A stretch of DNA of 64,000 bases, from positions 1 through 64,000 of the forward strand of contig NZ_JAFHKK010000008.1 in the NCBI RefSeq assembly GCF_016937535.1, in the 5' to 3' direction. Source of the DNA: Sulfurospirillum tamanense. GTDB taxonomy: Bacteria; Campylobacterota; Campylobacteria; Campylobacterales; Campylobacteraceae. The notes beneath the pieces are model-generated. The model was not told the DNA's origin. It searched no databases and saw only the letters and a program-made list of their open reading frames with translations. Both the position numbers and the translations under genes were made by a program. Position 1 is the stretch's first letter; each line of letters begins with the position of its first letter. Below are positions 317 to 61,852 of this stretch, in pieces.

Positions 317-368
317 ATGTCCTCCAAAAGGTTTACATGTAAAAGATTATTTTTTTATCATAATAATC

Positions 369-377
369 TGCTACGAT
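369..377 (+). promoter_or_regulatory. Candidate extended -10 element for pta-ackA
   Basis: TGC followed by TACGAT (372-377) is an extended -10 box about 55 bases before the pta start. Campylobacterota sigma-70 promoters usually lack a conserved -35, and none is clear here. A copy of the dispersed palindrome lies just upstream at 332-343. Confidence 0.35.
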
Positions 378-432
378 TACACCAAAGCAAATAGAGTTCC
401 AACCTTGCTCCCCAATGATAAAAAGGAAAATC

Positions 433-2529
433 ATGCAAACCAAAAGTCTGTACATTGCGTCACTAGAGCCAGCCGCTGGCAGTTTAATCGTAGCAATGGG
501 CATTATGGAAATGCTCAAAGGCCGCATGGAAAAAGTAGCTTTTTTCCGACCCGTCATCCCCACTAGGGCGACAACAGATGGGGATATTGATTTTATGCTG
601 GGGTATTTTTCCTTACAGCAATCCTATGAAGACACTTTTGGGTTCAGTGTTGATGAAGTAGAAACAATGGTAGCAAGCGGAAATCGCCATGACCTCATGG
701 AGGCTTTGATTGGTAAATTCAAACTCCTAGAAAGCCAATACGATTTTGTCTTATGCGAAGGGCTTAGTAGCTCCTCTCTTACCTCTTCTTTTGATTTTGA
801 TATCAACTTGGAGATTGCTAAAAATCTAGGTGTTCCTGTTGTCACGGTTCTTAATGGCAACGGAAAAACCCTCAAAGAAGTACATGAAGAGATACGTATC
901 GAATCTGCAACCATCAAAACAGAAGGCTGTACCCATTTTGCCACCTTTGCAAATCGCCTAAGCCAAGATGTTTTTGAAACACTCAAAAAAGACGAGAGCC
1001 TCGATTCTGACCAGCCCGTATTTTTACTCCCTGAAATTCCCGAACTTGATTCCCCAACCATTGCAGAAATTAAAAAGTATCTCAAATGCGACATGATTCT
1101 AGGAGGCGAGCAAGATTTAAGACGGGTTGTCAAGCAGAGTAAGGTTGCCGCCATGACCATGGAGCATTTTCTTGACCACTTAGAGGATGGGGATTTGGTC
1201 ATCGTTCCTGGCGATCGCCCCGCAATCATGCTAGCAGCCATTGCGGCCAACTACTCCAAAGTCTACCCTACTATCGCAGGGATTTTACTAACCGGTGGAT
1301 TTGTACCAAAACAAGCCATTCTAGAACTTGTTCAGGGCATCACCCATTTTAATGGCATTCCTGTTTTAACAAGCACAAAAGATACCTTTAAAACCGCCAT
1401 GGATGTCAACAACGTTCCCGCGCGCATCACCCCTCAAAGTAAGCGAAAAATCGCTCTTGCTATGGGGCTTTTTAACGCCAATGTAGATAAGCTAAGGATT
1501 GAAGAAAAAATTAAAACCTCAACAGCTTCTTCGGCAATGACGCCCATTATGTTCGAATACAGCCTTTTTGAAAAGGCAAGGAGCAACAAAAAGACCATTG
1601 TCTTACCCGAAAGTGAGGACGTGCGAATTTTGCGCGCTGCAGAAATTCTTTTGCGTCGAGATGTGGTCAACCTTGTTCTTTTGGGCAACGAAAGCGAAGT
1701 CATGCACAAAGCCATGACCTTGGGCCTTGACCTTAAGGGCGTGCGCATCATTGACCCCGCCACCTCTCCCTTGAGCGAAGAATTTGTCACTGCTTTTTAT
1801 GAACTTCGAAAAGCCAAAGGCCTCAAACTTGCTGCTGCTAAAGATGCCATGGTAAGTCCAAACTATTTTGCCACTATGATGGTTTACCTTGGACACGCTG
1901 ATGGCATGGTCTCAGGTGCAGTGCACACAACCGCTGACACCATTCGCCCCGCCCTTCAAACCATCAAAACAAAACCTGGCATCTCGGTGGTTTCAAGTGT
2001 CTTTTTTATGTGTCTTGATACCCGCGTTTTAGTCTACGGGGATTGTGCGGTAAACCAAGACCCTAACGCTCAAGAATTAGCACAAATTGCCATCTCTTCA
2101 GCACAAACAGCCAAAGCCTTTGGTGTAGAGCCACGCATTGCGATGCTTTCGTATTCTACGGGAGATTCTGGTAGTGGAGACGAAGTGGAAAAAGTACGCA
2201 CAGCGACCAAGCTTGTCAAAGAGCTTCGCCCTGATCTTCTTGTCGAAGGCCCTATTCAGTACGATGCTGCCATCGACCCCCAAGTTGCTAAAACCAAACT
2301 CCCCAACAGCAAGGTTGCAGGACAAGCGACTGTCTTTATTTTCCCTGACCTTAACACTGGCAACAACACCTACAAAGCCGTACAACGCTCCTCTGGTGCC
2401 CTTGCTATAGGACCTGTGCTTCAAGGCCTCAACAAACCCATCAATGACCTAAGTCGAGGTTGTTTAGTAGAAGATATTGTTAACACCGTGGCCATTACTG
2501 CCATTCAAGCCCAAGGAGATAACGCGTGA
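433..2529 (+). CDS. pta: Phosphate acetyltransferase, long three-domain form
   Basis: Converts acetyl-CoA and phosphate to acetyl phosphate and CoA, the first step of the acetate-forming (or, reversed, acetate-assimilating) Pta-AckA pathway in the cytoplasm. At 698 residues it is the long form: an N-terminal P-loop-like (BioD-type) domain, a middle DRTGG domain (about 210-320), and the catalytic PTA_PTB domain (about 375-695) with TIVLPESED near its start and YSTGDSGSG and GPIQYDAAID later. I prefer the ATG at 433 (MQTKSLYI), which follows AAGGA with normal spacing; an in-frame ATG at 415 has no such site. The stop overlaps the ackA GTG start (GTGA), so the two are translationally coupled. 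Confidence 0.96.
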   Translation: MQTKSLYIASLEPAAGSLIVAMGIMEMLKGRMEKVAFFRPVIPTRATTDGDIDFMLGYFSLQQSYEDTFGFSVDEVETMVASGNRHDLMEALIGKFKLLESQYDFVLCEGLSSSSLTSSFDFDINLEIAKNLGVPVVTVLNGNGKTLKEVHEEIRIESATIKTEGCTHFATFANRLSQDVFETLKKDESLDSDQPVFLLPEIPELDSPTIAEIKKYLKCDMILGGEQDLRRVVKQSKVAAMTMEHFLDHLEDGDLVIVPGDRPAIMLAAIAANYSKVYPTIAGILLTGGFVPKQAILELVQGITHFNGIPVLTSTKDTFKTAMDVNNVPARITPQSKRKIALAMGLFNANVDKLRIEEKIKTSTASSAMTPIMFEYSLFEKARSNKKTIVLPESEDVRILRAAEILLRRDVVNLVLLGNESEVMHKAMTLGLDLKGVRIIDPATSPLSEEFVTAFYELRKAKGLKLAAAKDAMVSPNYFATMMVYLGHADGMVSGAVHTTADTIRPALQTIKTKPGISVVSSVFFMCLDTRVLVYGDCAVNQDPNAQELAQIAISSAQTAKAFGVEPRIAMLSYSTGDSGSGDEVEKVRTATKLVKELRPDLLVEGPIQYDAAIDPQVAKTKLPNSKVAGQATVFIFPDLNTGNNTYKAVQRSSGALAIGPVLQGLNKPINDLSRGCLVEDIVNTVAITAIQAQGDNA

Positions 2530-3716
2530 AAATTTTAGTACTTAATTCTGGAAGTTCTTCCATTAAATTTCAACTTTTCGACATGAATGCAAGCCAAGTG
2601 TTGGCTTCGGGGATGGTTGAACAAATCGGCGAGAGTACCTCCCAAGCAAAACTGACAACCCATGCAAAAGAGGATTTTAGCGCTTCTAAGCCTATTGCTA
2701 CCCACGAAGAAGCACTGGAGACTATGAACGCACTTTTTGCCCAATCCGGACTTTTGAACAGCCTTAGTGAGCTTGATGCCATCGGCCATCGTGTCGTACA
2801 TGGAGGAGAGCTTTTTTCTACCCCTACACTCATTGACCAATCCGTTCTTGAGGGCATTCGAGGGCTTTCTGCCTTGGCGCCATTGCATAATCCTGCCCAT
2901 GTTGTGGGCATTGAGACGGCCATCAAACAAAGCAAAGGTGTGCCACAGGTAGCTGTTTTCGACACAGCATTTCACCGCACCCTCCCCCAGCATGCTTACA
3001 TGTACGCCCTGCCTTACGAACTGTACGAGTCTTTACATGTAAGACGCTACGGGTTTCATGGCACTTCACACCATTTTGTCTCCAAAAGTGCGGCGGCCCA
3101 TTTAAATATCCCTTACGAAAATTTTAATGCCATCTCTTTACACCTTGGAAATGGCACCAGTGCTACAGCCATCCAAGGAGGCAAAAGCGTGGATACATCC
3201 ATGGGAATTTCACCTCTTGAAGGGCTTATCATGGGAACACGCAGTGGAGATTTGGACCCTGCGATTTTATTTTACTTGCACCGCGAAAAAGGCTACACCA
3301 TTGCCGAGCTTGACACCTTGCTCAACAAGCAAAGTGGCCTTAAAGGGATTTGCGGCAACAACGACATGCGAGAGATTGGACTCATGATTGACAAGGGAGA
3401 CGAAAAAGCCACCCTTGCTTTTGAGATGTTTGCTTACCGCATTAAAAAGTACGTTGGTGCATACAGCGCGGTGCTTGGACGCGTGGACGCACTTATTTTT
3501 ACTGGTGGTATTGGCGAAAACGACAGCCGATTACGCACAAAAGTTTGCGAAGGGCTAGGAAACCTTGGCATTAGCATCGACACGAACACCAACGACCAAC
3601 GTTGCAAGGTTATCACCCCCATTCACACGCAAAATGCTCCAGTCGCAACCCTTGTGGTGCCCACCAACGAAGAGCTTGAAATCGCCCAACAAACCCAAGC
3701 AGTTTTAGTTAAATAA
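2526..3716 (+). CDS. ackA: Acetate kinase
   Basis: Interconverts acetyl phosphate + ADP and acetate + ATP. Its length (396 aa) is normal for the family. The start has the kinase signature N7-S-G-S-S-S-I-K14, followed by FDTAFHRTLP, RRYGFHGTSH (substrate and ATP site) and LHLGNGTSATA. It starts with GTG inside the pta stop (4-base overlap). The gene carries two copies of the dispersed palindrome, at 2996-3005 (one mismatch, read as Tyr-Met-Tyr) and 3033-3042 (exact, read as Leu-His-Val). It converges on murF with an 8-base overlap of the 3' ends, leaving no room for an intergenic terminator. Confidence 0.97.
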   Translation: MKILVLNSGSSSIKFQLFDMNASQVLASGMVEQIGESTSQAKLTTHAKEDFSASKPIATHEEALETMNALFAQSGLLNSLSELDAIGHRVVHGGELFSTPTLIDQSVLEGIRGLSALAPLHNPAHVVGIETAIKQSKGVPQVAVFDTAFHRTLPQHAYMYALPYELYESLHVRRYGFHGTSHHFVSKSAAAHLNIPYENFNAISLHLGNGTSATAIQGGKSVDTSMGISPLEGLIMGTRSGDLDPAILFYLHREKGYTIAELDTLLNKQSGLKGICGNNDMREIGLMIDKGDEKATLAFEMFAYRIKKYVGAYSAVLGRVDALIFTGGIGENDSRLRTKVCEGLGNLGISIDTNTNDQRCKVITPIHTQNAPVATLVVPTNEELEIAQQTQAVLVK

Positions 3717-5148
3717 AGCTAGGTGCATCGTTTGAAAACAAGATAAGATCCCCTGCCCTTGTGTGCGTTGCTAACAAGGGCTCCATTTGGGATTTATCTT
3801 TTAAAAGGTGTACTTGGGGCTTTTTTAGCACGGCCATCAGCGTGGTTGCATTGACTTGGCCCGTAACCATTACCACATCAAACACCTCGTTCATCACCTC
3901 CGCCAAGGCAATGTTTTCTTCCTTGGTGCTCTCAATGATGCCAGGCGTAACAAGTACTTTGCGCCCTTGGTGTTGACGCACTAGCTCATAAGAGGCGCGC
4001 ATGCCTTCAAAGTTTCCATTAAAGCTATCATCTAAAATGATTTTTCCGCCCGCGTCCATGCGGCACAAACGGTGGGGCACAGGCTCCAATGAGGCGATTT
4101 GTTGGGCGATATGTTCAAAAGAGAGCCCAAAATGCCGCGCTACGTGGATGCAAGCAATCAGATTGGTCGCATGAAACGCACCCAAAAGCTTGGTCGCAAA
4201 CGCCCGTTTTTCCCCCTCAAATACCGCTTCAAAACGGGTTCCCTCAAGGGTTGCTTCTACATGTAAACATTCCCCACCAAAAACACGCACCCTCTCACTG
4301 GGCGCCGTGTTGGTGGTTTGGTGTACAAAGGCTTTTTCAAGGCGTGGAGAATACACTAATTCCATTTTGGTGTTGCGCACCGCTTCTAGGGTTTTAAAAT
4401 ACTCAATATGCTGTGGCCCAATCTCTCCCACAAGGGCCACATGGGGTTCCAAAAAGCGGGTGATTTCCAAAATGTCACCAGGCTCTCTGGCTCCCGCTTC
4501 AGCGATATACACTTGTGTATTTTCAGGCAATGCGGTATTCACGTCTTGCACCAATCCACCTAGGGTATTGACACTGCGTGGGGTAGCGTAGCACACAAAG
4601 GTTTCGCCCAAAATGTGCGCAAGAAAGTTTTTCATGCTCGTCTTTCCATAACTTGCCGTAATAGCAACGATCTTCAACGCAGAACGCGCAGCGAGTTTGG
4701 TTTTGGCTTTTTTGTAAAACCCTTGAAACAAGAGTTTTTCGTAAGCACTACTTAAGACCACCGTGGCAATAAGCGGCATCAACACGCCAAACTGCGCGCA
4801 CGTAACAGCGGCCAAACACAACACGTCTTGAAACAACGTCGCAAAAAACAAAAAGGCAAAAAACCGCTTCACGCGCGCGGTAAACACCAAGGGTTTATCA
4901 AGTTTTCGTGCCCACAAAACGAGCATTGGAAAAAATGCCACAATCACGTAAAACCACACGTACACACCTGCAACATAATACGCCGCCACGGGAATAATGA
5001 GAAAAAAGACGTGCCATTGGGGCTTGTGAAAATGAAAAACAACGCGCTTAACACGGTAGTGGTACCACTGAAGTGCGGTTGCAAGGTAATACCCAAGCCC
5101 CATTACAAATACAAGGTGCAACCCAAGCCATACCAACGCCATCATCAC
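3709..5148 (-). CDS. murF: UDP-N-acetylmuramoyl-tripeptide--D-alanyl-D-alanine ligase, membrane-anchored type
   Basis: Last cytoplasmic ligase of peptidoglycan precursor synthesis, adding D-Ala-D-Ala (made by Ddl, encoded nearby) to UDP-MurNAc-tripeptide. Unlike the soluble E. coli enzyme, the first ~140 of 479 residues are hydrophobic, with several predicted membrane segments; I associate this with Campylobacterota MurF. The Mur ligase P-loop is T164-A-S-Y-G-K-T-S171, where most MurF proteins have GSNGKT(T). Further Mur signatures are AEAGAREPGDI, the central NTKMELV and ILDDSFNGNFEGM. Its start overlaps the stop of the hydrolase gene by 4 bases. A one-mismatch palindrome copy at 4257-4266 encodes LHVE. 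Confidence 0.93.
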   Translation of the reverse strand: MMMALVWLGLHLVFVMGLGYYLATALQWYHYRVKRVVFHFHKPQWHVFFLIIPVAAYYVAGVYVWFYVIVAFFPMLVLWARKLDKPLVFTARVKRFFAFLFFATLFQDVLCLAAVTCAQFGVLMPLIATVVLSSAYEKLLFQGFYKKAKTKLAARSALKIVAITASYGKTSMKNFLAHILGETFVCYATPRSVNTLGGLVQDVNTALPENTQVYIAEAGAREPGDILEITRFLEPHVALVGEIGPQHIEYFKTLEAVRNTKMELVYSPRLEKAFVHQTTNTAPSERVRVFGGECLHVEATLEGTRFEAVFEGEKRAFATKLLGAFHATNLIACIHVARHFGLSFEHIAQQIASLEPVPHRLCRMDAGGKIILDDSFNGNFEGMRASYELVRQHQGRKVLVTPGIIESTKEENIALAEVMNEVFDVVMVTGQVNATTLMAVLKKPQVHLLKDKSQMEPLLATHTRAGDLILFSNDAPSFI

Positions 5149-5858
5149 GCCTCCTTCAACGCGCGCTCAATGCGTGCGCCATGCAAAATAAAGAAAAAAT
5201 GGTCCCCTTGTAAAGGGTAAAACGTAGCATTTGGAATCAACCGCGCAATCTCTTCGCCGCTTTGTAATGGCGTAGTCTTGTCTTCTTCACCCCAACACAC
5301 TAACGCCCGCCCTTTGTACGCAGCAAAAACCTCGCGCATGTCTTCGTTGACCACCTTTTTAAGGGTTTCGTACATCACCGGCGCCATGCCCTGCACGTCT
5401 TTGGTGGCAAACAGGCGGTAAAAACGCCCAAATCCTAGGCGTTTTAAAAACTTAAATAGAGCGATTTTTACTCGCACACCTAAAGGTTTGGGCGGCACAA
5501 TCCCTGCACTGCTTAAAAGCACCAAGGTTGAAGGGTTGAGCAAAGTGGCGACTTTACCCCCAAAAGAGTGGCCCACCATTATCTCAGGCGTTACATGTAA
5601 CGCCTCTAAAAACGCCCTCACAACCGCTGCGTATTCCAAAGAAACCAACGGTACATGTAACGAAGACGCACCAAAACCTGGTAAATCAATGTAAAGGTGT
5701 TGGTACTCTTTAAACACGCCACCAAAGGCTTTTTTCATAATCTCTTTATTGGCTCCCCAACCGTGCAAAAACACAATGGTTTGCGCTTGCTCGGGGTGAA
5801 GAATTTCATACCCAATCTCATAGTCCACTCCGTTTACATGTAAGGCCCGTTTTGCCAT
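5145..5858 (-). CDS. Alpha/beta-fold hydrolase
   Basis: A 237-residue alpha/beta hydrolase of unknown substrate. It shows the oxyanion-hole HGW (32-34), the nucleophile elbow G96-H-S-F-G-G101 (Ser98), a late acidic segment GEEDKTTP (candidate Asp) and a C-terminal GDHFFF (candidate catalytic His). No signal peptide, so cytoplasmic. It sits between a YefM/Phd-like gene (1-base gap) and murF (4-base overlap), a placement I recall in C. jejuni too (Cj0796c-Cj0795c). A link to cell-wall metabolism is inference from context only. Three palindrome copies fall within this short gene (5591, 5651, 5834), all read as Leu-His-Val. Confidence 0.85.
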   Translation of the reverse strand: MAKRALHVNGVDYEIGYEILHPEQAQTIVFLHGWGANKEIMKKAFGGVFKEYQHLYIDLPGFGASSLHVPLVSLEYAAVVRAFLEALHVTPEIMVGHSFGGKVATLLNPSTLVLLSSAGIVPPKPLGVRVKIALFKFLKRLGFGRFYRLFATKDVQGMAPVMYETLKKVVNEDMREVFAAYKGRALVCWGEEDKTTPLQSGEEIARLIPNATFYPLQGDHFFFILHGARIERALKEA

Positions 5859-5859
5859 C

Positions 5860-6181: not shown

Positions 6182-7219
6182 CTAAAGTTTCCCTTTAGCA
6201 GCATGAATAGAGTGAATGTACTGATACGACACTGTGGCTTCTTTTGGCGCAGGAAGAGCCTTAGCCAAGCGGTGCACAAGGCCATCAAAGTCTTGAAAAA
6301 GGTAGTTTGCCATACTGCCAGGATTGGGGTTGATTTCATTTAAAACCACCTCTCCTTTAACCATGAAAAAATCGCATCGAATCAACGCCCCTTGAAATAA
6401 AGGCATGTAAAGAGCCTCAAAGGCTTCTTTTAGGCATTTTTCTTCAGAGGGTTCAAGTATGGCTTTGGAGACCGTAGCGGTGCGTGAAAAGTCCAAATAC
6501 TTTTTATCAAAGTCCAACAATTCCCCTTTTTGCGGAGCTTCAATGATAGAAAATTCCACACCTTGTGTGGTAAAACATCCTGCAAGGTTGTACTCCCTCA
6601 CCCCCTCCACAAAGGGCTCAACAATGACCGTGTCGTCGTACTCAAAAGCCACATCTAGGGCGTATTCAAGGGTTTTTTCACTACGCACCACGCTCACGCC
6701 AATGGAACTGCCAAGACGTAAAGGTTTAATAATGAGCGGATACGCAAGGCTTGGGGTACGCTGCTGGGGCGTGAGTAGTTCGTAAGGCAAGGTCTTTACC
6801 CCGCACGCTTCCGCCAAATGCTTCGTCCAAAGTTTACTATAACTGAGCACCGACGCTTCTAGGCGTGGTCCAATGAAAGGCACACCAAAAAACGAAAACA
6901 ATCCCGCCAGTTTGCCATCTTCTCCATCGGCCCCGTGAATGAGGTTTAGCACCACGTCGCAAAAGATTTTTTTTGAACCAAACAATCCTTTACATGTAAA
7001 GCCACCTTGTTCTAGGGTGAGCTTGGGGTCTTTTTTGTAACTTCCATCCGAAAAACGTTTGGCGTTGATGGATTCGGCTGGAATCAAATAAAACTCACGG
7101 TTTGCGTCACAAAAAATATAAATCAGTTTACATGTAAGCACTTTTTTAAGTGCAATAGCACTGACAATGCTAATCTCATGCTCGTAACTTTTCCCGCCAA
7201 ATACAATTCCTACTTCCAC
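6182..7219 (-). CDS. ddl: D-alanine--D-alanine ligase
   Basis: ATP-grasp ligase that makes the D-Ala-D-Ala dipeptide used by MurF. It has 345 residues and starts with the Ddl signature V-F-G-G-K-S-Y-E-H-E-I-S. Later come NLIHGADGEDG, PLIIKPLRLGSSIGVS (ATP-grasp core), EPFVEGVREY and the metal-binding LNEINPNPGSM. The start is GTG at 7219, preceded by AAGGAAG. Two exact palindrome copies (6990, 7128) are read as FTCK and LTCK. It lies 9 bases after ruvA on the same strand, so it probably shares the fapA-ruvA transcript. Confidence 0.96.
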   Translation of the reverse strand: MEVGIVFGGKSYEHEISIVSAIALKKVLTCKLIYIFCDANREFYLIPAESINAKRFSDGSYKKDPKLTLEQGGFTCKGLFGSKKIFCDVVLNLIHGADGEDGKLAGLFSFFGVPFIGPRLEASVLSYSKLWTKHLAEACGVKTLPYELLTPQQRTPSLAYPLIIKPLRLGSSIGVSVVRSEKTLEYALDVAFEYDDTVIVEPFVEGVREYNLAGCFTTQGVEFSIIEAPQKGELLDFDKKYLDFSRTATVSKAILEPSEEKCLKEAFEALYMPLFQGALIRCDFFMVKGEVVLNEINPNPGSMANYLFQDFDGLVHRLAKALPAPKEATVSYQYIHSIHAAKGKL

Positions 7220-28129: not shown

Positions 28130-30400
<2,271 letters not shown>

Positions 30401-42076: not shown

Positions 42077-42094
42077 CCGCTTCAGGGAATGCTC

Positions 42095-44288: not shown

Positions 44289-44301
44289 TTAACAACTCAT
44301 C

Positions 44302-44976: not shown

Positions 44977-44991
44977 TGCTTACTCCTTAGC

Positions 44992-49762: not shown

Positions 49763-50663
49763 CCATTAGCCTTTTTTCCAATCGTTCAATTCTAAACCCT
49801 TTAGCAACACCAGCAAGGGCATAATATGCACGTCTAGAAATCCCTACAGGAACAGCGGGAAGTGACATGTATTTGGGTGTCAAAAAAAGCGTTTGCCTAG
49901 GGAAGCTTGGTTCAGTACACCCCAAACAAGGACTACCTACACGTGTTTTACTGCTCGTCTCATTCCATAAAATTTTGTTGCAATTTGCGTGTGTCATGGG
50001 GCCTTGACACCCTTGCTCGTAAAACAAACACCCCTCTTTTATGCCAAAGGTATCACAATCCACCTTCCACTCAAAATACTCATTACGCAAACAGCCATGG
50101 TGGGCAAGGTATGCATAAATTTCCTTTGGACGGCAAAGAGTGTCAAGCACCAAAGGGCGGCGGTGCTTTAGTAGCATAAGCGTCTCAATAACCCATGAAG
50201 GATGCACCGGACACCCAGGAAGATTGACAAGAGAATTGCCTGCTAGCGTTTTCAATGCATCCCCAAAAAAGCCGCCTTTTTTTTCACCTCGAAAAAGACC
50301 ACCCATGATTTTCTCTGGATCACGCTCTTTAAACACACCACCAAAAGAAGCACAACTTCCCACACACACCACATGGGTTGCGCGCGGCATCAGCACACCT
50401 AAAATCTCATCCAGCCCCATCCCATGGCGCTCTATCATAGAGGCATCATGACTCAAAGCACCCTCAATAATGAGCACATCAATAGCAGCAGGAGAATCCA
50501 TTAGTGCTTTTAAAGTAAAGGGGGAAGGAAAAAGGGGATGGTATAAAAAAGAAAAAACCTCACAAAAAGAGGCAAATTGCGTATAATTTAACAAAGAGTG
50601 GCTATTACCATTACATGTAAGGCCCTGAACCCATGCAATGGTAAAGGGAGTTGCCTCAGGCAT
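49752..50663 (-). CDS. Cytoplasmic group-2-like [NiFe]-hydrogenase, small subunit with altered proximal-cluster motif
   Basis: 303 residues, with no Tat signal and no C-terminal membrane helix. The proximal-cluster motif, normally C-T-G-C-S-x-S, is C17-N-G-N20-S-H-S, so the second Cys is replaced by Asn. Other ligands are present: GSCASFGG, NLPGCPVHP, and the medial/distal set in CLFYEQGCQGPMTHANC and GSPCLGCTEPSFP. The start overlaps tetR by 8 bases. C17 and N18 are encoded by an exact palindrome copy at 50611 (LTCN). Confidence 0.9.
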   Translation of the reverse strand: MPEATPFTIAWVQGLTCNGNSHSLLNYTQFASFCEVFSFLYHPLFPSPFTLKALMDSPAAIDVLIIEGALSHDASMIERHGMGLDEILGVLMPRATHVVCVGSCASFGGVFKERDPEKIMGGLFRGEKKGGFFGDALKTLAGNSLVNLPGCPVHPSWVIETLMLLKHRRPLVLDTLCRPKEIYAYLAHHGCLRNEYFEWKVDCDTFGIKEGCLFYEQGCQGPMTHANCNKILWNETSSKTRVGSPCLGCTEPSFPRQTLFLTPKYMSLPAVPVGISRRAYYALAGVAKGFRIERLEKRLMDED

Positions 50664-51263: not shown

Positions 51264-51334
51264 TTACATGTAAAGCTTTTTACATGGTAGTTTTCGCAAA
51301 AGTGTAACACAAATACCCAAACAGTCAACTTTTG
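51264..51334 (-). promoter_or_regulatory. tetR-hydrogenase promoter with dyad and palindrome copy
   Basis: On the minus strand TTGACT (51328-51323), 16 bases, then TACACT (51306-51301) form a good sigma-70 promoter. CAAAAGT (51297-51303) and ACTTTTG (51328-51334) are arms of a dyad that flanks both boxes, as for an autoregulated promoter. Downstream, in the leader, lies an exact TTACATGTAA at 51264-51273, with a damaged second copy just beyond. Confidence 0.6.
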
Positions 51335-52083: not shown

Positions 52084-53175
52084 TTACGAAGATTGGCCTT
52101 CTTGCCCTTGGGGCATCATATGCTTAAGGGTTTTTTTTATCTCTTTTTTCTGTTGTTTTTTCTTTAATTTCATGAGCGTCTTTGCAAACGCCTGCATATC
52201 ATCGGTCGTATCGGCTTCATCCATGATTTCTACACCTAGCACCGTCTCGATACAATCTTCAAGGGTTACGATACCCTCCGTTTGGTCATAGCTGTCTATG
52301 ACCACAAACATATGCTCACGGCGCTTAATAAACATATCTAAGGCATACGAAACGGGAATATTTTCGTGAATCGAAAATATTGGTTGCATGATGCTCTCAA
52401 TGGCAACGTCTTGATTAATGATGGCCTTTTGAAAAATCTTCTTTGCCATCACCATGCCAACAACATTGTCAATACTACCCTCGTACACGGGTATGCGCGA
52501 AAACTTGTGGACCTCTTCTTTTAAAAGCACGTCGCGTACGCTCATGGTTTTCTCCACCGCAAACACCACGCTTCGGGGAGTCAAAATATCGTACACCTTG
52601 CTTTTACTCAACTGCAAGGTGTTTTCAATGATGTCAGACTCTTTTTCATCAATAATACCTTCATTTTCTCCCAAAAGTGCGCTTTGCAAGAACTCTTCAC
52701 GGGTCATTGTGTGCCCTTTTTTGTTTCCTGCAATTTTTTTAGTTACAAAAATAGAAACAACCACTAACGGATAGGTAACAAAAACTAAAAATCGTATGCC
52801 AAAGGCTGCAACGGGAGCCAACTCTTTCCAATACAATGCGCCAATAGTTTTTGGAATAATTTCAGAAAGAAACAAAATAAGCAACGTAAGAATAGCTGAA
52901 ACAAAAAACATTGCCTCAGAGCCAAAAATCTTCACTGCCTCAGCACCAACACCTGCTGCTCCTGCGGTATGAGAAATCGTATTGAGAATCAGAATCGACG
53001 AAAGAGGGACATCAATGTTTTTCTTAAATTTTTCAAGCAATTGCCCAACAGATGGACGTTCTTTTTTGAGTACTTGAATATAAGAATAGCTCAAGGAAAG
53101 CAGGATAGCTTCGAGTAGCGAACAGACAAACGAAACCCCAACAGCAATAGCCACATAAATAAACAAGAGCGTCAT
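52084..53175 (-). CDS. CNNM/CorC-family membrane protein with CBS domain pair
   Basis: A 363-residue hemolysin C/CorC-type transporter-like protein. An N-terminal DUF21 region with about four membrane helices includes LSEIIPKTIGALYW; a linker and two CBS domains follow (ILTPRSVVFAVEK and MQPIFSIHENIPVSYALDMF...GIVTLEDCIE). The usual CorC_HlyC C-terminal domain seems missing, and the end is a lysine-rich tail. Magnesium or cobalt efflux is the usual proposal. I choose the ATG at 53175 with GGGAG upstream. It is 99 bases after ubiD on the same strand. Confidence 0.85.
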   Translation of the reverse strand: MTLLFIYVAIAVGVSFVCSLLEAILLSLSYSYIQVLKKERPSVGQLLEKFKKNIDVPLSSILILNTISHTAGAAGVGAEAVKIFGSEAMFFVSAILTLLILFLSEIIPKTIGALYWKELAPVAAFGIRFLVFVTYPLVVVSIFVTKKIAGNKKGHTMTREEFLQSALLGENEGIIDEKESDIIENTLQLSKSKVYDILTPRSVVFAVEKTMSVRDVLLKEEVHKFSRIPVYEGSIDNVVGMVMAKKIFQKAIINQDVAIESIMQPIFSIHENIPVSYALDMFIKRREHMFVVIDSYDQTEGIVTLEDCIETVLGVEIMDEADTTDDMQAFAKTLMKLKKKQQKKEIKKTLKHMMPQGQEGQSS

Positions 53176-53274
53176 AGCACACGCTCCCAACGCTGAGGAC
53201 TTGTAAAAAAATACGCGGTGACTTCCAAAATGCGCATGCGCATCTCCACAAAGCACCGCTTAGGCGATGAAGGT

Positions 53275-55083
53275 TCAGACATGGTAGTGTTTTAAAAACT
53301 CCTTTGTTACGGTAATTATTTTTCTCTCCTGCAATGAAGCAATCACCGCAGGGTCGCAATCTGTATCTTTAGGCCATTCACGCGCGTACCCATCAAGGGC
53401 CGTTTTATTGGTACCATCAAGAGCAATGTAACCCTCTTCTAGGTACACATCACGCAAAGCATCCATGTTGTTCACCGCACGCCAAACAAGCATGTAGGGG
53501 TTAGCAACATTGTTGCTCGCATAGTCAACAAAAACAAGCAGTTTAACATGTTCCTTGAGGACTTTCAAGGCCTCGTACACCTCTCCCATGGAAGAGGATT
53601 TTTCCACCCCAATAACACACACGGGTGTTTTTGTGTGGGTTTTGTACTGTTTTACTGCTTTAATCTCGGGAACGAGTGCCGACATTTTAGCATAAAGCTC
53701 TCCATCTTGCAGTATCTTTTTGTCTAAAAAAGGAACGTTATCTTGGGTACAATCAAGACCTAGTTTTCCCCCATAGCAGGCATTAGGCGAAGCATGGTCA
53801 AGGGCATCGCACACCCCCTCACTAATCACGATATTACCCACCTTAACACGGTCAAGAATGTATTCACTCACCGCGTCATAATCACCAAGCTTTGGCGCAT
53901 CAGCTCCCAAAAAGAGCGCGTGCTTCACAAAACTCATCTGCCCTACTCCCCAAAACGCGTGCATAAATTGCTTGGCATGTCCAGGATAGCGGGTTTCCAT
54001 CTTGGCTAAAATAAGGTTATGAAACACCCCATTTTCAGGCATCTCATAATCAATCAAATCAGGCGCTGTGGTTTTAAGCAAGGGCAAAAACACCCGTCCT
54101 GTGGCCCAGCCCATGTATTTATCCTCCAAAGGTGGCTTGCCCACCACCGTAGCCAAATAGACAGGGTTTTTTTTGTGCGTAATGCAACTTACCTCCATCA
54201 CAGGGTAAGGCTCTTTAAGAGTATAGTACCCCGTGTGGTCACCAAAAGGCCCTTCGATACGCATTTGTGTTGGATCCACCCAACCCTCGATGACATAATC
54301 CACATCTTCAGGTACATAGATAGGGTTAGTCAAAGATTTAACCAAGCGGGCATTTTTTTCTTTAATAAGCCCGTAGAGCATCAGTTCAAACACGCCATTT
54401 GGCATAGGGGCTTGCCCGCACCAAATGTAGAGCGGGTCTCCGCCAATGGCAATAGAAACAGGCATGGGTTGCCCTGCTTGTTTGTATTCGTGAAAAAAGT
54501 GCGCACTGTCTTTGTGAATTTGCCAATGCATTCCAAGGTGTGTTTCATCGTACACTTGCAAGCGGTACATACCAAGATTGTGCTTTGTGCCATCCAAACT
54601 GGTTGTATAGACTTGCCCCATGGTAATAAAAGGTCCGCCATCCTCGCTCCACGTGGTCAACACAGGGATGTCGTACAAATTGGGCTTTTCTTGCACTACT
54701 TCTTGGCATACACCCTTGGAATTTAGGCGTTTTGGAAAAACATTTTTGAGGTTAAAGAGTTGGCCAAGCATGCCCATTGTGTTAAAAAACCCTTGAGGAG
54801 GCTTTACATGTAACAAATCATCAATTTCTTTAGCGACCGCGTCAGGCTCTTTGCCAAAAAACAAACGGGTGGCTTCGTAAGAACCAAAGACGTTCATCAG
54901 CACCGGCACATCAAAGGTTTTACCCAAACGTTTGCTTACAGGCTTAGTAAAAAGCAAGGCTTTAGAGTCGGGTTTTTTGACTTCCACATAGGCTGTGTGA
55001 GGGATTTCTAAGTCAATATCCACAGGTTCGTCGATAACCCGTAACAATCCGTGCTGTTTGAGTAAATCAATGGTTTCTTGCAT
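53275..55083 (-). CDS. UbiD-family decarboxylase, probable menaquinone biosynthesis decarboxylase
   Basis: 602 residues of the prenylated-FMN-dependent UbiD family; motifs include PFITMGQVYTTS, GGDPLYIWCGQAPMP and EGPFGDHTGYYT. In Campylobacterota, menaquinone is made by the futalosine route, and this protein type is annotated as its decarboxylase; E. coli UbiD acts on ubiquinone precursors instead. It follows hemC by 10 bases with GGAGGGG before the ATG. An exact palindrome copy at 54804 is read LHVK. Menaquinone would serve HydC and the respiratory chain. Confidence 0.9.
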   Translation of the reverse strand: MQETIDLLKQHGLLRVIDEPVDIDLEIPHTAYVEVKKPDSKALLFTKPVSKRLGKTFDVPVLMNVFGSYEATRLFFGKEPDAVAKEIDDLLHVKPPQGFFNTMGMLGQLFNLKNVFPKRLNSKGVCQEVVQEKPNLYDIPVLTTWSEDGGPFITMGQVYTTSLDGTKHNLGMYRLQVYDETHLGMHWQIHKDSAHFFHEYKQAGQPMPVSIAIGGDPLYIWCGQAPMPNGVFELMLYGLIKEKNARLVKSLTNPIYVPEDVDYVIEGWVDPTQMRIEGPFGDHTGYYTLKEPYPVMEVSCITHKKNPVYLATVVGKPPLEDKYMGWATGRVFLPLLKTTAPDLIDYEMPENGVFHNLILAKMETRYPGHAKQFMHAFWGVGQMSFVKHALFLGADAPKLGDYDAVSEYILDRVKVGNIVISEGVCDALDHASPNACYGGKLGLDCTQDNVPFLDKKILQDGELYAKMSALVPEIKAVKQYKTHTKTPVCVIGVEKSSSMGEVYEALKVLKEHVKLLVFVDYASNNVANPYMLVWRAVNNMDALRDVYLEEGYIALDGTNKTALDGYAREWPKDTDCDPAVIASLQERKIITVTKEFLKHYHV

Positions 55084-55093
55084 CTTTCCCCTC

Positions 55094-56044
55094 CTAGTCG
55101 TTAAAAATAACCGTCATGGCCATAGTTTCGGCCTCTTTAAGCAATGCACGTGCTCCACGTTCCACCATGCGTTTGGCCAAAACTTCACCCACGTGGGCGT
55201 ATTCTTCCCTCTTATATGTAAGGCTTTCCTCGAGGATTTGGCTAGCATCTGGCAAACCTACCATAGCCTTTACATGTATATGGTCTTTTTCCAAGGTTGC
55301 GTTCACGCCGATAGGCACTTGGCATCCCCCTTCTAAGATGCGCACAAAATCCCGCTCAATGGTTGTCTCGATGATGGCTTCGTCGTCGTTTAAAAAGGCT
55401 AACATTTCGCGAAGTTCTGGTGTGTCCACGCTTTCGATACCTAAAGCCGCTTGGCCGCTTGCAGGAATCATCCACGTTTTTTCGATAGGCGCAAAATAGC
55501 GCACTTCCTCTTGAAGCCCCAAGCGCACAATGCCAGCGGTTGCTAAGATGATGACGTCAAATTCCCCCTCTTTAAGCTTACGAATGCGGGTATTGACATT
55601 GCCTCGCAAGTTTTTAATCACCAAATCAGGACGCTTGGCTAGCAGTTGCATCCGACGGCGTAAACTGGTTGTGCCCACCACGGCACCTTGGGGCAACGCG
55701 TCAAGTGAAGCGTATTTTTCTGAGAGCATCGCGTCACGGGGGTCTTCGCGCTTAGTGAGTGCCACAAGGGCCAAACCTTCAGGAAACTCTGCGGGTACGT
55801 CTTTGAGGCTATGCACCGCCAAATGGGCATTGCCGCGCAACATCTCCTCTTCAAGCTCTTTGGTAAAAAGTCCTTTGCCACCAATCTTTGCCAGTGGCGT
55901 ATCTAAAATCTTATCGCCTTTTGTTTTGATGATATTAAGGTCTATATGTAAAGAAGGGTACCGCTCCATAAGTAAAGCTTTGATGTGTTCGGCTTGCCAT
56001 AAGGCTAGCTGGCTTCCGCGGGTGGCGATGATAATGTTTTTCAT
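55094..56044 (-). CDS. hemC: Porphobilinogen deaminase (hydroxymethylbilane synthase)
   Basis: Polymerises four porphobilinogen units in heme synthesis. It has 316 aa: [15 protein letters not shown] at the start, the catalytic [27 protein letters not shown], and the dipyrromethane-binding Cys in [11 protein letters not shown] choose the ATG at 56044 after AAGGA; the frame runs open to 56086. A one-mismatch palindrome copy at 55270 is read IHVK, and a degenerate one lies at 55212. Confidence 0.97.
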
Positions 56045-56045
56045 A

Positions 56046-56474
56046 TTAATCCTTCTTAAGTTCTTTAGTATGGGGTGATTCTTCAATTACCTCCACGTCA
56101 ATGACGCTTTGGTCGCGACGCGTACGTCCATCAGGGCGAGTAGCGGGTGGCGCGAAACGCTTAGAGACCAACGTCGCCACGGCGCTAAATTGCAAGGCAA
56201 GTCCTACAATGTCGCTAAAAACTCCAGGTAAAATGAGCAAAAATGCCCCAATCACCGTAAAAAGGCTAATTTGGCTCAGCCCTTCAGGAGTAAGATTACG
56301 CTGGGCAAGGGCTTGCAAGCTTTGGGCAAGAGTGGCGCGAAAGTTGGCCAAGAACAATGCACCTAAAAACGCCGTGCCCATAATCTCCACAAAAGCACCA
56401 AGGCCGCCAAGTTGGCTAAAGACATTGACACTAATGAGGGTTTCAAAAAACACATAAAGGATAAAATAAATCAC
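56046..56474 (-). CDS. FxsA family membrane protein
   Basis: A 142-residue protein with about three membrane helices, resembling FxsA (the E. coli protein whose overexpression relieves phage T7 exclusion). Features: the N-terminal [26 protein letters not shown] and [20 protein letters not shown]. Cytoplasmic C-terminus is charged. Its start overlaps proS by 4 bases, and hemC begins 1 base after its stop. Confidence 0.86.
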
Positions 56475-58177
56475 ACCAAACGCCTTAGAATCTCCGCTTC
56501 GACCACATCGATGCCCATGCCCTCTTTTTCAAGAGTTTTGCGGCTCACAAGCTCCACCTTGCCCTCTTTAAAGTCCTTGCCTACAACCACCGCATAGGGG
56601 AATCCGATGAGCTCAAAATCGCTCATTTTAAACCCAAAACGCTCATTGCGGTCATCCAAAAGCACTTCTACGCCCTTGGCTTTTAAGGACTCGTACAAGG
56701 AGACGGCGTAGGCCAAACTCTCTTCGTCTTTGGTATTAGAAACGATGATTTCAACGGCATATGGGGCGGTTTGAAGGTTCCAAATGCACCCTTTTTCATC
56801 GTGGCTTGTTTCAATCATCACCGCAATCAAACGGCTCACTCCAACCCCATAACACCCCATCCAAAAAGGCTGTGCTTTGCCGTTTTGGTCCAAAAAGGTT
56901 GCGTTCATGGCTTTAGAATACTTTTGACCCAGTTGAAAAATGTGCCCTACTTCGATACCTTTGGTGATGCCAAGCTTCCCGCCACATGCCACACAGCAAT
57001 CCCCCGCCTCCACTGCGACCAAATCCTTAAAACGCGAAGGTTTAAAGCTTGCAACTTTCACGCCCACCCAGTGATAGTCTTGCTCATTGGCACCACAAAT
57101 GAGGTTAGCCTCACCTTCAAGCTCTTGGTCGATGTAAAACTCTACGCCCTCAGGTAAGCCAATAGGCCCGCAATACCCTGCTATAAGCCCTGCTTTTTCG
57201 ATCTCTTCCGCCGTTGCGTCGGTGAGTTCGAGGGCACCGCACGCGTTTTGCGCTTTGGTTTCTTGTAACGCGTCGCACCCGCGTACAAAAAAGACCACCA
57301 CAGCTTCTTTGTCTTGAAAAACAGCTTTTTTAATGACCGCTTTGATGGTATAAAAAGGGTCTACATGTAAGTACGCGCCGACTGCTTCAATAGTGTTTTG
57401 ATTGGGCGTGTGAAACTTGGCGGGATTAGCCTGTGGAGCTTCGAGGGTTGTGGTTTTTTTAGCGCGCTTTGCCGCTTCGATGTTGGCACCATAGTTGCAC
57501 CCATCGCATACCACGATGTCGTCTTCCCCATTGGGCGCTAAGACCATAAACTCTTTGCTTCCGCTTCCGCCAATAGCCCCGCTATCTGCTTCAACTGCGC
57601 GAAACTTAAGGCCAAGACGCTCCAAAATACGCGTATAGGTGGCTTCCATAAGGTTAAATTCACGCACCAAATCCTCTTGGCTCGCGTGAAAACTGTAGCC
57701 GTCTTTCATGGTAAACTCACGCCCCCGCAACAGACCAAAACGTGGCCTTGCTTCATCACGGAATTTGGTGGTGATTTGGTACAAATGCAAAGGCAATTGT
57801 TTGTAAGAATTAATGCGATTACGCACCATGTCTACCACCACTTCTTCGTGGGTTGGGCCCAACACAAAGCCATTTTCTTTACGGTCGCTAAAGCGCAACA
57901 GCTCTTTGCCAAACACACTGTAGCGCCCGCTTTCTTGCCACAAATCTGCAGGACTTACGACACCCATTTGCACCTCTTGGGCACCAGCGTTATCCATCTC
58001 TTCTTTCACAACTTGGCGGATTTTATCAAAAACAATTTTACCCATAGGCAAAAAGTTATACAAACCGCTTCCTACTTGTTGAATAAACCCTGCGCGGGTT
58101 AAAAAGATGTGGCTAGGAAGTTGGGCATCCTTGGGGGTCTCTTTTGTTGTTGGGGCGTAAAGGTTAGAAAATCTCAT
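56471..58177 (-). CDS. proS: Prolyl-tRNA synthetase, bacterial type with editing insert
   Basis: Class II synthetase (568 aa). Motif 1 region GLYNFLPMG, motif 2 [23 protein letters not shown] ([10 protein letters not shown] and [12 protein letters not shown]), a YbaK-like editing insert at about 225-390, motif 3 near [10 protein letters not shown], and an anticodon-binding C-terminal domain. Start overlaps hemA by 4 bases and end overlaps fxsA. A one-mismatch palindrome copy (57361) is read LHVD. Confidence 0.97.
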
Positions 58178-59478
58178 GCATGTTTCTCCAGTTGATAGTC
58201 ACATTGGTAATGGTCGAGTTGTTTGTTTTCTTCTTCGTTAATGTCAAAAAAGTATTGAATGGCTTGCACAATGGTATCGGATTCTGGCTGTTCAGCAATG
58301 GCTTTAAGGTTTTTAGTAGGACGATGCAAAAACGCGTTAAAGACTTGATGCACCACGCGCATCACTGCTTCTTCGCTCTCTTTGGGAATGTACCCTTTTT
58401 TTGCCGCCTTGGCGACCTCTTGCATGGCGCAATTTTTGGCTTTTTCGCGGATTTCCTTGATGATGGGATCCACGCTTAGAGTTTGTAACCACCTGAAAAA
58501 CTCGATGGTCGAACGCCCCACAATGCCATAGGCTACCTGGGCTTGTTCTTCCCGAAGGGAGACGTTGCGCGAAACGATTTCTTTTAAATCATCCACTGCA
58601 AAAACCTGCACATTTGCACGGGGTGAAAGCTCGATGTCTCGAGGCACCGCAATATCAAAAAAATAACGCGGATGCTCTCGGTAAGAAAGCATCCCATCCG
58701 TCACAATGGGCTTAGAAGCGCCTGTGGCAGAAAAGATGAACGAAAAGCGGTTGACGTATTCGCCTAAAAAGGAAAAATCATCCACCCGCACGTCCCCTTC
58801 CACACTCGCCGCTAGGGCGTAAGCATTCGCAGGGGTGCGATTAATGAGCACAACCTTGGCCTTGTGTGCTAGCAAATGCTTCACCGCCAACGTGCTCATC
58901 TCGCCCGCACCAATCACCAACACTTCTTTCCCTTCTAACGACCCTGCAATCTCCTCGGCTTTAGAAACAGCAACACTCGAAACAGAAATGGGACTTTGAG
59001 AGATGCTTGTCTGGCTACGCACCAAGGCAGCACAGCGAAAAGCATGGTGCATGGCACGGCTGAGTTTCAGGCCACAAAACCCTTCTTCATAGGCAAAACG
59101 GTACGCATCTTTGAGTTGCCCCACAATCTGCGTCTCGCCAATCACCAAGCTATCAAGAGAGGAAGCAACCGCAAAGAGGTGATGGATGGCGCCATTGTCT
59201 TCGTACACGTCCACACGCCCAAGAATGTCCTCTTTATCCACCTTGCACACTTCCACCAACTGGCTCGTGATGTGGGCTAGTGCTTCCTTGCACTCTTTGG
59301 CGCTTGTGATGATTTCAACACGATTGCACGTAGAGAGAATGATGGCTTCATTAAGACTTGGATGAACAACAATGCGACACAGCATGTCGCGTAGTTTTTC
59401 TTGTGAAGCAAAAGAGAGTTGTTCGCGAATCCCAATGTCGGTGTTTTTGTGCGTGAAACTCATCGTCATATAGTGCAT
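58174..59478 (-). CDS. hemA: Glutamyl-tRNA reductase
   Basis: First enzyme of the C5 heme pathway, reducing Glu-tRNA to glutamate semialdehyde. It has 434 aa. Catalytic C51 lies in STCNRVEI; other motifs are [17 protein letters not shown], the NADPH domain [10 protein letters not shown] and a C-terminal dimerisation helix. One-base overlap (TGATG) with ispB, and a 4-base overlap with proS. It works in one pathway with hemC three genes downstream. Confidence 0.97.
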
Positions 59479-60374
59479 CAGAACTCTCTTTCAATCATCT
59501 GAATCACGACCTTATCTAGCCCCTCTACCCCTGTTTTGGCAATAGCTTCAAGGGCTTCTTTGCCAAGGCTTTTGGCGTGGTCGATTGCGCGCGCAAGAGC
59601 GCCTGTGGTGCGCATTTTTTCTTGAATCCACACCGCTTGATCGGGCGATAATACCACGCCAAAAAGCGAAAGGAGCACCGCCTTGTCTTGCGCATTTAAT
59701 GCTTCATACATGTAAAGGTATGGCAAGGTTGTTTTTCCCTCGGCAAAATCATTCAACGCAGGTTTTCCCAACGTCTGGCTGTCTTGCGTGATATCTAAAA
59801 TGTCATCCACAACTTGAAAAGCAAGCCCCAGATTTCTCCCATACGTCGCAAAAGGTTCCCATGGTTTTCCCACAAGTTGCGCTGCTGCTTTTGCGCTGGC
59901 TTCAATGAGCGAAGCGGTTTTGTTGTAAATCATCTGGTCATACGCCGTTTTATCAGTGTGAAAGGCTTGGGAAAGTTCCACGTCTTGAAGTTCACCAAGA
60001 CTTAACAAAGCAACCGCATTAGAAATTGTTTGGGCAACCGCAGAAGGAAGGGCGCAAAGTTCAAAAAACCCTTTGGAGTAAAGAATATCGCCTAGCATAA
60101 TGGCGGTTTTGTTGCCAAAGCAGGCATTAACAGAATCCACCCCGCGTCGCGTAAGCGCGTCGTCAATCACATCATCGTGCAACAAACTTGCCGCATGAAT
60201 CAGCTCCACAATGGCCGCTAACTTCACCGCATCAGGATGCGCACCAGCAATTCTTAAAATCAACTTCGCCCGAAGCCGTTTTCCACTGGGGACACTTTCG
60301 TACAAAGCACACACCCGTGCATCGCCCAAAGAAGCGACGATTTCCCCCATCGTTTTTTCTACTGATTCAAGCAC
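59478..60374 (-). CDS. ispB: Polyprenyl diphosphate synthase
   Basis: Trans-prenyltransferase (298 aa) that makes the long isoprenoid tail of menaquinone. The first aspartate-rich motif is D67-D-V-I-D71 and the second VVDDILD (about 203). Product length cannot be read off safely, though the short length suits octaprenyl-type enzymes of this phylum. GTG start at 60374, directly after the upstream stop. A one-mismatch palindrome copy at 59706 is read LYMY; in that frame the exact form would make a stop. Confidence 0.93.
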   Translation of the reverse strand: MLESVEKTMGEIVASLGDARVCALYESVPSGKRLRAKLILRIAGAHPDAVKLAAIVELIHAASLLHDDVIDDALTRRGVDSVNACFGNKTAIMLGDILYSKGFFELCALPSAVAQTISNAVALLSLGELQDVELSQAFHTDKTAYDQMIYNKTASLIEASAKAAAQLVGKPWEPFATYGRNLGLAFQVVDDILDITQDSQTLGKPALNDFAEGKTTLPYLYMYEALNAQDKAVLLSLFGVVLSPDQAVWIQEKMRTTGALARAIDHAKSLGKEALEAIAKTGVEGLDKVVIQMIEREF

Positions 60375-61364: not shown

Positions 61365-61396
61365 TTACATAAAAAAATACAAATTATTTTATGTAA
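61365..61396. repeat. AT-rich inverted repeat with split palindrome half-sites
   Basis: Perfect 10-bp arms TTACATAAAA (61365-61374) and TTTTATGTAA (61387-61396) around 12 bases, 2 bases after the stop of the gene at 61399. The outer six bases on each side, TTACAT and ATGTAA, are exactly the half-sites of the dispersed palindrome. It could end transcription of that gene. Confidence 0.6.
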
Positions 61397-61398
61397 TA

Positions 61399-61764
61399 TT
61401 AATACCCATCATCGTAGATTTTGGAGCGGTGTTTGTTTTTTTTGTAGCTGCTAGTTGTTTTGAGTTTTTGAATAGCATTGGCTTCTTTTAATAGCACCTG
61501 CAACACAACCTCTTTTTCTTGAGGATTTTTGATGGTTTCTAGTACAAAATTGACATAATCTTCCAAGGCGCGCGTATAGGGTGAATCAAGAGAAACAGCA
61601 GGGACTTTACTTAGTACAGTATAATTTTTTTGCATCCTGAGTATAAAAAGTTCTAAATTAAAATCCTCACGTTTTAGTAGTGCGGCCGCGGATTTAACAA
61701 ATCTTTCTAAGGCACGCACATATTTCACGCGCTGCTCTTTTTCTTGTATATGAAAAGGTTTCAA
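61399..61764 (-). CDS. Hypothetical small helical protein
   Basis: 121 residues, not recognised, with basic, leucine-rich helices and a lysine-rich C-terminal tail. The only workable start is TTG at 61764, eight bases after AAGG, and that AAGG is itself part of a palindrome copy (61775-61784). Soluble; no signal. It is monocistronic, divergent to metY, so its promoter overlaps the metY control region. Confidence 0.6.
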   Translation of the reverse strand: MKPFHIQEKEQRVKYVRALERFVKSAAALLKREDFNLELFILRMQKNYTVLSKVPAVSLDSPYTRALEDYVNFVLETIKNPQEKEVVLQVLLKEANAIQKLKTTSSYKKNKHRSKIYDDGY

Positions 61765-61852
61765 TGGTTTTGCCTTACATGTAAAGATTTTTGTCTATTA
61801 TACCACTCTCTTTACTTTTTCTCTTTAATCTTGACTACTCTTATTAATTTAC

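Follow-up and report, generated by a model that had tools for sequence, protein, structure and literature searches.

A HIP1-type element, the palindromic octamer TACATGTA (consensus CTTTACATGTAAAG), recurs about 1,000 times as an exact copy in chromosomes of several free-living bacteria related to Campylobacter, is confined to some lineages of the Campylobacterota, and is kept at each of its positions by selection on the DNA sequence itself. It is characterized by genome-wide excess, conservation site by site, constraint at the level of DNA and not of protein, a strict core and a patchy phylogeny. In the window, i.e., the whole 64-kb stretch of DNA analysed here, the decamer TTACATGTAA is present in 28 exact copies between positions 333 and 61784, plus 13 one-mismatch copies, which reproduces the counts of the original prediction; shuffled sequences average 2.5, with a maximum of 7. 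Well under one copy had been expected by chance, and a third-order Markov model indeed gives 0.09 exact copies. The excess is neither Markov-level nor restricted to the window, since the whole 2.46-Mb genome contains 1,059 exact copies, versus 1 of a reversed control.

The invariant unit is the 8-bp palindrome TACATGTA, and its neighbouring bases are graded (T at -1, T or C at -2, C or G at -3, AT-rich further out), with a conserved flank that ends about 7 bases either side of the centre; TTTACATGTAAA is a sequence bearing this palindromic mark. ACATGT is found 49 times in the window, 39 of them as TACATGTA, so that it stands without these flanks about ten times, as first noted. A short restriction-like core was rejected, ACATGT lacking TA...TA being at background; the force does act beyond the hexamer, as proposed, but on an octamer with soft flanks rather than on a rigid 10-12 bp. 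The core is broken in two of the 13 near copies (TTATATGTAA at 55212 and TTGCATGTAA at 61029). Single-mismatch cores number 62 versus 58.9 expected, change being tolerated only at the outer flank base, and an excess of such cores was sought in the window genome, G397 and G235, where they are at chance level. Departures from the consensus are mostly at the outermost bases. The description of the window as saturated fits the density (0.43 copies per kb), but not the spacing, which is random (CV ~1). Three quarters of the copies are intragenic, in genes of all kinds, and the remainder intergenic, in line with the claim that unrelated genes and intergenic DNA are both occupied; intergenic density is 4-5 times coding density.

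Individual sites are strongly conserved. In G397, a genome of the same genus with 82% identity to the window genome, 33 of 37 cores persist, against 24.8% of all octamers (P ~2e-16). Among the intergenic copies of TTACATGTAA, those at 333-342 (intact), 22678-22687 (between convergent genes) and 51264-51273 are all kept in G397, as is a close pair at 30435-30444 and, 13 bp on, 30448-30457. The same is true of the copy at 21218-21227, which lies across the end of a gene on the minus strand, and of those at 3033-3042, 5591-5600, 5834-5843, 6990-6999, 7128-7137, 11518-11527, 18619-18628, 21684-21693, 22188-22197, 36235-36244, 40149-40158, 41140-41149, 43227-43236, 43270-43279, 43528-43537, 50611-50620 and 54804-54813, while 61775-61784 is intact in a gapped alignment. 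At 33662-33671 and 34064-34073 the core of TTACATGTAA is kept; 40372-40381 shows two differences, and 12224-12233 is absent from G397, with 4 differences. Among the cores with variant flanks, TTACATGTAC (2996-3005), CTACATGTAA (4257-4266 and 57361-57370), GTACATGTAA (5651-5660, 29323-29332 and 16400-16409, the last also kept in G354) and TTACATGTAT (12052-12061 and 55270-55279) are kept in G397, ATACATGTAA is kept at 59706-59715 and shows one difference at 15221-15230, and TTACATGTAG (35137-35146) also shows one difference. The sites at 55270-55279 and 59706-59715 are common to G235 as well.

Within sites, the choice among synonymous codons is identical to that of G397 in 76 of 78 cases, versus 38.6 predicted from like codons outside sites. 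The sites also come at a cost to proteins, in which coding copies force the peptides LHV and xTC to about threefold the level of shuffled sequence: [LIV]HV peptides number 96 versus 35.5 in shuffled sequence and xTC[..] peptides 52 versus 14.7, with similar values in G235. Together, site-level conservation and these forced peptides show a genome-wide selective force on DNA that is strong enough to override protein sequence. Across families, G235 shares 5 of the 20 window-genome sites compared, versus ~0.01 by random placement, which hints at common ancestry. The sites may nonetheless have converged on permissive positions or been spread by gene transfer, because in this comparison every window-genome site at a position permitted by both proteins was common to the two genomes.

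The statistics draw on 20-600 kb sampled from each genome. The distribution of the element in Campylobacterota is patchy: it is found in this genus, in Sulfurospirillaceae and in part of Sulfurimonadaceae, while relatives of the window genome are without it. Rich genera carry 0.36-0.5 copies per kb, and Sulfurospirillum plasmids of 38-40 kb also bear it (~0.35 cores per kb). In G209 and G350 the core takes the relaxed form [T/G/C]ACATGTA, a species dialect at one outer base; an earlier reading of these two as decaying genomes was withdrawn, as the excess sits at a single outer base. Scattered decay products are clear only in G182, weak in G240 (20 kb) and not significant in G146. Close pairs 13-25 bp apart are often inverted repeats with complementary flanks (AAAGGG..CCCTTT); such inverted pairs number 4 versus ~1 expected in C1 of the window genome and 4 among the first 50 sites of G116, and turn up in small numbers in several rich genera. 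Some of the pairs in intergenic DNA resemble terminators. A viral scan with a 14-mer gave mostly chance matches and a few short contigs with several copies.

The closest analogue is HIP1 of cyanobacteria (GCGATCGC), together with the alternate HIPs, as first proposed. Both elements are palindromic octamers in enormous genome-wide excess, in coding and intergenic DNA alike, whose inner tetranucleotide a solitary methylase recognizes in HIP1 (GATC) and would recognize here (CATG), and both show patchy loss among relatives and deviations chiefly at the outer bases (compare PMC4390886). HIPs may also differ between species, which can carry different variants (PMC4390886). Unlike HIP1, the element belongs to another phylum and is unrelated in sequence, HIP1 proper occurring 4 times in 198 kb, where the core is TACATGTA instead; its one-mismatch cores are not in excess, its intergenic enrichment is 4-5 fold and its methylase link is incomplete. 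The literature searched contained no described counterpart for the phylum, as had been supposed.

Judged by its family (M.HpyI/NlaIII), a solitary D12 adenine methyltransferase that is encoded by the two genomes of this genus as well as by dense Sulfurospirillum is expected to target CATG. The enzyme matches PF02086 and PDLC03257 and gives end-to-end alignments (37-65%) to members of that family adjoining ICEA nuclease genes, the window genome's copy sharing 37-41% end-to-end identity with ICEA-paired enzymes. The link to CATG comes from an ICEA gene (PF05315) adjoining 14 of 80 related methylase loci and from M.HpyI, which methylates CATG and whose gene lies beside IceA (PMC4450513). The D12 enzyme is homologous to ICEA-paired enzymes of the family of M.HpyI and M.NlaIII, CATG adenine methylases accompanied by IceA/NlaIII nucleases, and the motif is centred on CATG; unlike them, it is solitary, with no ICEA neighbour beside it, and its specificity is a predicted one. 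Four sites lie inside the methylase gene of a plasmid copy, with nothing systematic elsewhere.

Presence of this enzyme largely tracks site density. In g26, the 14 genomes with a full-length ortholog carry 362-512 copies per Mb, versus 19-389 in seven genomes that lack one and are at least 90% complete (Mann-Whitney P 3e-5, uncorrected for phylogeny, which is controlled only in part, through one gene of 10 g26 genomes). All 14 of the 14 Sulfurospirillum genomes with the ortholog have at least 0.36 copies per kb, while in genomes that lack it the sites are for the most part sparser, decaying or relaxed: G182 and G146, both nested within dense species, lack the enzyme, as do G209 and G350. A prediction linking density and enzyme, stated in advance, held true for 6 of 8 genomes. 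The link between element and methyltransferase is therefore likely but not proven, because some site-rich genomes are without the enzyme: G165 (567 copies), G240 (934), G350 (412), G182 (238) and the incomplete G411 (840), as well as G129, which has 340 copies and no decay cloud, yet neither D12, C5 nor N6_N4 methylase. The survey covered methylases other than the Eco57I/TaqI and type I enzymes of G129 and G165. Conversely, D12 relatives are encoded by the site-poor G061 (7 copies) and G163 (48) and by Bacteroidetes that lack the motif. The early suggestion of a methylation-linked mark is genuinely, if incompletely, supported. N6_N4 (PF01555) and C5 (PF00145) methylases were rejected as universal partner, being missing from several rich genomes.

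Overall, these data are best explained by a methylated HIP1-type mark, written by the D12 enzyme and read in DNA uptake or recombination, a reading held with somewhat less than even confidence. The solitary CATG-family enzyme would methylate the A of the central CATG. A bare CATG enzyme does not account for TA...TA or for the soft flanks, and the mark would have a reader that needs the full octamer; such a writer and reader together seem to us about an even bet. That the mark is read where DNA is recognized as self, during uptake or recombination, is more speculative, and is suggested by analogy with Campylobacter jejuni, in which import is limited to DNA that CtsM has methylated at RAATTY (PMC10046745). 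This system belongs to the same phylum and pairs an adenine methylase with a palindromic motif, RA(m6)ATTY, for recognition of self-DNA at uptake, much as proposed here; unlike it, the motif here is TACATGTA. Preferential import of marked DNA would allow sites to spread and be repaired, and once the enzyme was lost they would decay. ComEC is present in 42 of 42 genomes, whether rich or poor in sites, and competence therefore does not tell them apart.

A role as uptake signal, raised in the original prediction, is possible. In the sense known from Neisseria and Haemophilus, a competence receptor would bind the bare sequence and biased import would accumulate copies, methylation being irrelevant. 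The element resembles the DUS of Neisseria and the USS of Pasteurellaceae in copy number, order of excess, AT-rich outer flanks and reshaped proteins, its inverted close pairs 13-25 bp apart may correspond to DUS pairs in terminators, low-GC regions are poor in sites (Spearman 0.63, P 2e-4 in G235), and the dialect of G209 and G350 and the ubiquity of ComEC also fit. However, it is palindromic, which DUS and USS are not, no receptor was found and site-poor relatives have ComEC too. True uptake sequences also show strong over-representation of singly mismatched forms (PMC1939737), whereas one-mismatch cores here are at background, without any graded excess. This explanation is rather unlikely.

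We likewise give little credence to a binding-site role, in which an abundant protein that structures or repairs the resident chromosome would recognize the element, methylated or not. A palindrome with soft AT-rich flanks would suit a dimeric DNA-binding protein, and conserved individual positions and ~1,000 randomly spaced copies are compatible with it. The complete G235 chromosome, however, is uniform over 20 evenly spaced samples (variance/mean 1.05), with no ori/ter gradient or macrodomain bias, unlike KOPS, matS or Noc type sites, which gives no support to a chromosome-organizing protein with such bias; plasmids also bear sites and no candidate protein was found.

Improbable in turn is a mutational ratchet, in which Elhai's methylation-directed mismatch repair would make the sequence without benefit. 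The HIP1-like anatomy, with a predicted methylase target at its heart and deviations at the outer bases, speaks for it, but MutL (PF01119) was detected in 0 of 42 genomes, rich and poor, with control genomes positive, so that the model published for HIP1 cannot apply, and sites are conserved singly, at amino-acid cost. Finally, a transposable repeat, a transcription-factor regulon or an artefact of base composition might account for the high copy number and the terminator-like intergenic pairs, but can be dismissed as most improbable given the short conserved flank, the predominance of copies inside genes of all kinds, and a third-order Markov expectation far below the 28 copies observed.

HIP1 has, to our knowledge, been unexplained since 1995, in part because only a single phylum is known to carry it. 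The fullest form of the mark proposed here is a methylation-licensed label of self-DNA with exact-octamer readout and species dialects, based on a solitary CATG-family methylase in several Campylobacterota lineages, and held site by site without mismatch repair while rewriting proteins; put forward tentatively and with some doubt, it would, if true, constitute a second, independent HIP system, testable in culturable bacteria. An independent palindrome with HIP1 anatomy in culturable genera opens the way to comparative and genetic tests, helped by closely related species that have naturally gained or lost the element or differ in its dialect, and one model, MutSL-directed repair, has already been removed.

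The palindromic decamer TTACATGTAA was originally noted in 28 exact and about 13 one-mismatch copies, against fewer than one expected, and recounting in the window (contig 8, 1-64000, of a 63-contig, 2.46-Mb assembly) gave 28 and 13 such copies, compared with a mean of 2.5 and a maximum of 7 in dinucleotide shuffles; under a third-order Markov model, 0.09 exact copies are expected. No other palindrome of at least 8 bases in the window approaches this excess. The repeat is not confined to the window, as the whole genome contains 1,059 copies versus 1 for the reversed pattern, and G397, which belongs to the same genus, contains 1,084. In both genomes, GATC and CCGG are far below expectation (observed/expected 0.16-0.28), which suggests past or present restriction systems, and CATG is not avoided (0.98). 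The window also carries a hydrogenase region (39866-46716), with HypF (39866-42076) and the NiFe hydrogenase large subunit (44992-46716).

Across pooled sites, the invariant part is the octamer core TACATGTA, of which a 198-kb sample from the window genome contains 112 copies for 1.35 expected. Its flanks show preferences that weaken outward, with T at -1 (86%), then T/C at -2 and C/G at -3, followed by an AT-rich segment at a distance of roughly 5-9 bases; this profile recurs in the Sulfurospirillum genome G235 and, slightly shifted, in two Sulfurimonadaceae genomes. The earlier view that selection acts on the full 10-12 bp is thus too broad for the fixed part, which is the octamer, and holds in that the flanks are also favoured, with decreasing strength. 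Single-mismatch cores, all pooled, show no excess in the 198 kb (43 vs 44 expected), nor in larger samples of the window genome, G397, and G235. Since true uptake sequences have a cloud of mismatched forms (PMC1939737), its lack around TACATGTA weakens the proposal of a methylation-independent uptake sequence.

Copies had been noted both in genes and in intergenic DNA, and are indeed found in both, at 0.28-0.38/kb and 1.4-1.7/kb, respectively, the intergenic enrichment being seen in every orientation class. Within genes, the frame TTA CAT GTA is about twice as frequent as nTT ACA TGT AAn; the frame with a stop codon is seldom used. Spacing is random, except that very close pairs (13-25 bp) are over-represented, and several of these pairs form inverted repeats. 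On the complete chromosome of G235, sites are distributed uniformly, with few in low-GC stretches. This uniform spread lends no support to the envisaged chromosome-organising role, in a form with origin or terminus bias, and, together with the presence of sites on plasmids, weakens the explanation that they bind a resident chromosome-binding protein.

Selection works on individual sites, at the DNA level. In a G397 contig that is 82% identical to the window, 33 of the 37 cores aligned without gaps are identical, compared with 24.8% of all octamers (binomial P 2e-16), as are 22 of 26 decamers, compared with 18.4% of all decamers (binomial P 5e-13); two further cores, outside the 37, are also preserved, in alignments that contain a gap. 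This is not explained by protein conservation: in-site codons whose amino acid is unchanged are identical in 76 of 78 cases, for 38.6 predicted from how these codons behave in the rest of the window. The sites force amino acid choice too: the window genome encodes 96 [LIV]HV tripeptides (35.5 in shuffled proteins), 71 of them with the site, and 52 xTC[..] peptides (14.7 shuffled), and the corresponding values for G235 proteins are 157 vs 59 and 103 vs 33.

Of 397 Campylobacterota genomes surveyed, nearly all have the decamer in background numbers (0-12 copies); it is abundant in Sulfurospirillaceae, in part of Sulfurimonadaceae, and in the genus of the window. Genomes of the genus nearest the window's, within the same family, have 78, 9 and 1 copies, and the window's sites, when sought there, are absent except for one shared position. 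Five of 20 coding sites in orthologs (mean protein identity 45%) are common to the window genome and G235 at the same codon, which hints at common ancestry, although few sites were compared and convergence is possible. The window region 52084-60374 (ubiD-proS and neighbours) is colinear with a G235 region and 58-75% identical to it, versus the 45% mean of compared ortholog pairs, and may reflect either strong conservation or gene transfer. In G320, with only 78 copies in total, four TTACATGTAA are clustered within about 430 bp of intergenic DNA (L075:14190-14640), accompanied by apparent degenerate CRISPR-like repeats.

Solitary methylases recognise inner parts of HIP1, the highly iterated palindrome of cyanobacteria (PMC4390886), and methylase families were therefore surveyed across about 40 genomes. 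N6_N4 (PF01555; 22 genomes) and C5 (PF00145) methylases are missing from several site-rich genomes and were rejected as the universal partner. Both representatives of the window's genus encode a D12 adenine methylase (PF02086) of 320-340 residues (in the window genome on contig 40, 8025-8993 of L110), as do dense Sulfurospirillum genomes, with no nuclease neighbour found in either group. Relatives in other bacteria adjoin, in 14 of 80 loci, a gene for an ICEA protein (PF05315, E 3e-112). In H. pylori, M.HpyI, the partner of IceA, methylates CATG (PMC4450513), which is also the centre of TACATGTA.

Within Sulfurospirillum, the type of enzyme changes along with both the number and the specificity of the sites. 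Genomes with a full-length D12 ortholog (57-100% identical to the G235 protein) number 14 and have 362-512 copies/Mb, 10 of these counts being known in advance, versus 19-389 copies/Mb in seven genomes (all at least 90% complete) with no ortholog or with another type. Advance predictions of density were right for six of eight uncounted genomes; of the misses, G412 (77% complete) lay slightly above the limit, whereas for G411 (86% complete) the prediction failed. The ortholog of G407 looks broken, yet this genome has 1,405 copies. In a tree of the competence channel ComEC, G182 (238 copies) and G146 (49), both without the ortholog, are nested among dense species, and in G182 one-mismatch cores are in scattered excess (46 vs 29.8), which fits neutral decay. 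Two Sulfurospirillaceae genomes, G209 (L387-L391) and G350 (L378-L381), also without the ortholog, show a relaxed outer core base, with GACATGTA found 18 times vs 1.4 and 14 vs 1.3, respectively; random decay was rejected as its origin, since the excess consists of [T/G/C]ACATGTA, a relaxed motif form.

Elsewhere, Sulfurospirillum diekertiae plasmids (L473, pSDCE1, 1692-2732 and 20494-21355; L474) bear a D12 methylase gene that contains four TACATGTA, arranged as two pairs at 38-39 bp, and a group of sites surrounding a LexA/S24 regulator gene. Upstream of tsaD in Sulfurimonas G328 and G186 (L313, L314), a D12 methylase lies beside a second methylase, Eco57I/TaqI-like, and a neighbouring protein, where G116 and G163 have the D12 gene alone.

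Several observations disagree with this picture. In G129, which holds 340 copies and shows no decay cloud, none of the three methylase families sought (D12, N6_N4, and C5) is present; D12 was not found in site-rich G165 (567 copies) and G240 (934); relatives of this enzyme are also encoded by some genomes that lack the motif; and the TA flanks of TACATGTA are left unexplained by a CATG-specific enzyme. Given these misfits, we only infer the D12 link, with moderate strength, and the enzyme may be one of several routes.

Most likely, TACATGTA would be a methylated self mark whose reader tolerates no deviation from the sequence. The closest parallel within Campylobacterota is C. jejuni, where uptake is confined to DNA that CtsM has methylated at RAATTY (PMC10046745). 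Biased import and recombination would hold sites perfect, acquired low-GC DNA would have few of them, and loss of the writer enzyme would let them decay. ComEC is encoded in 42 of 42 genomes, so competence appears possible, an observation that does not discriminate. A repair ratchet is weakened by the lack of MutL, which was sought in 42 genomes and is absent from every one.

As its likeness to HIP1 had suggested, the element is a real and strongly selected HIP-type palindrome of Campylobacterota, apparently undescribed as judged from a limited literature set. HIP-type elements are known but unexplained, and this variant offers a testable candidate enzyme and testable dialects.
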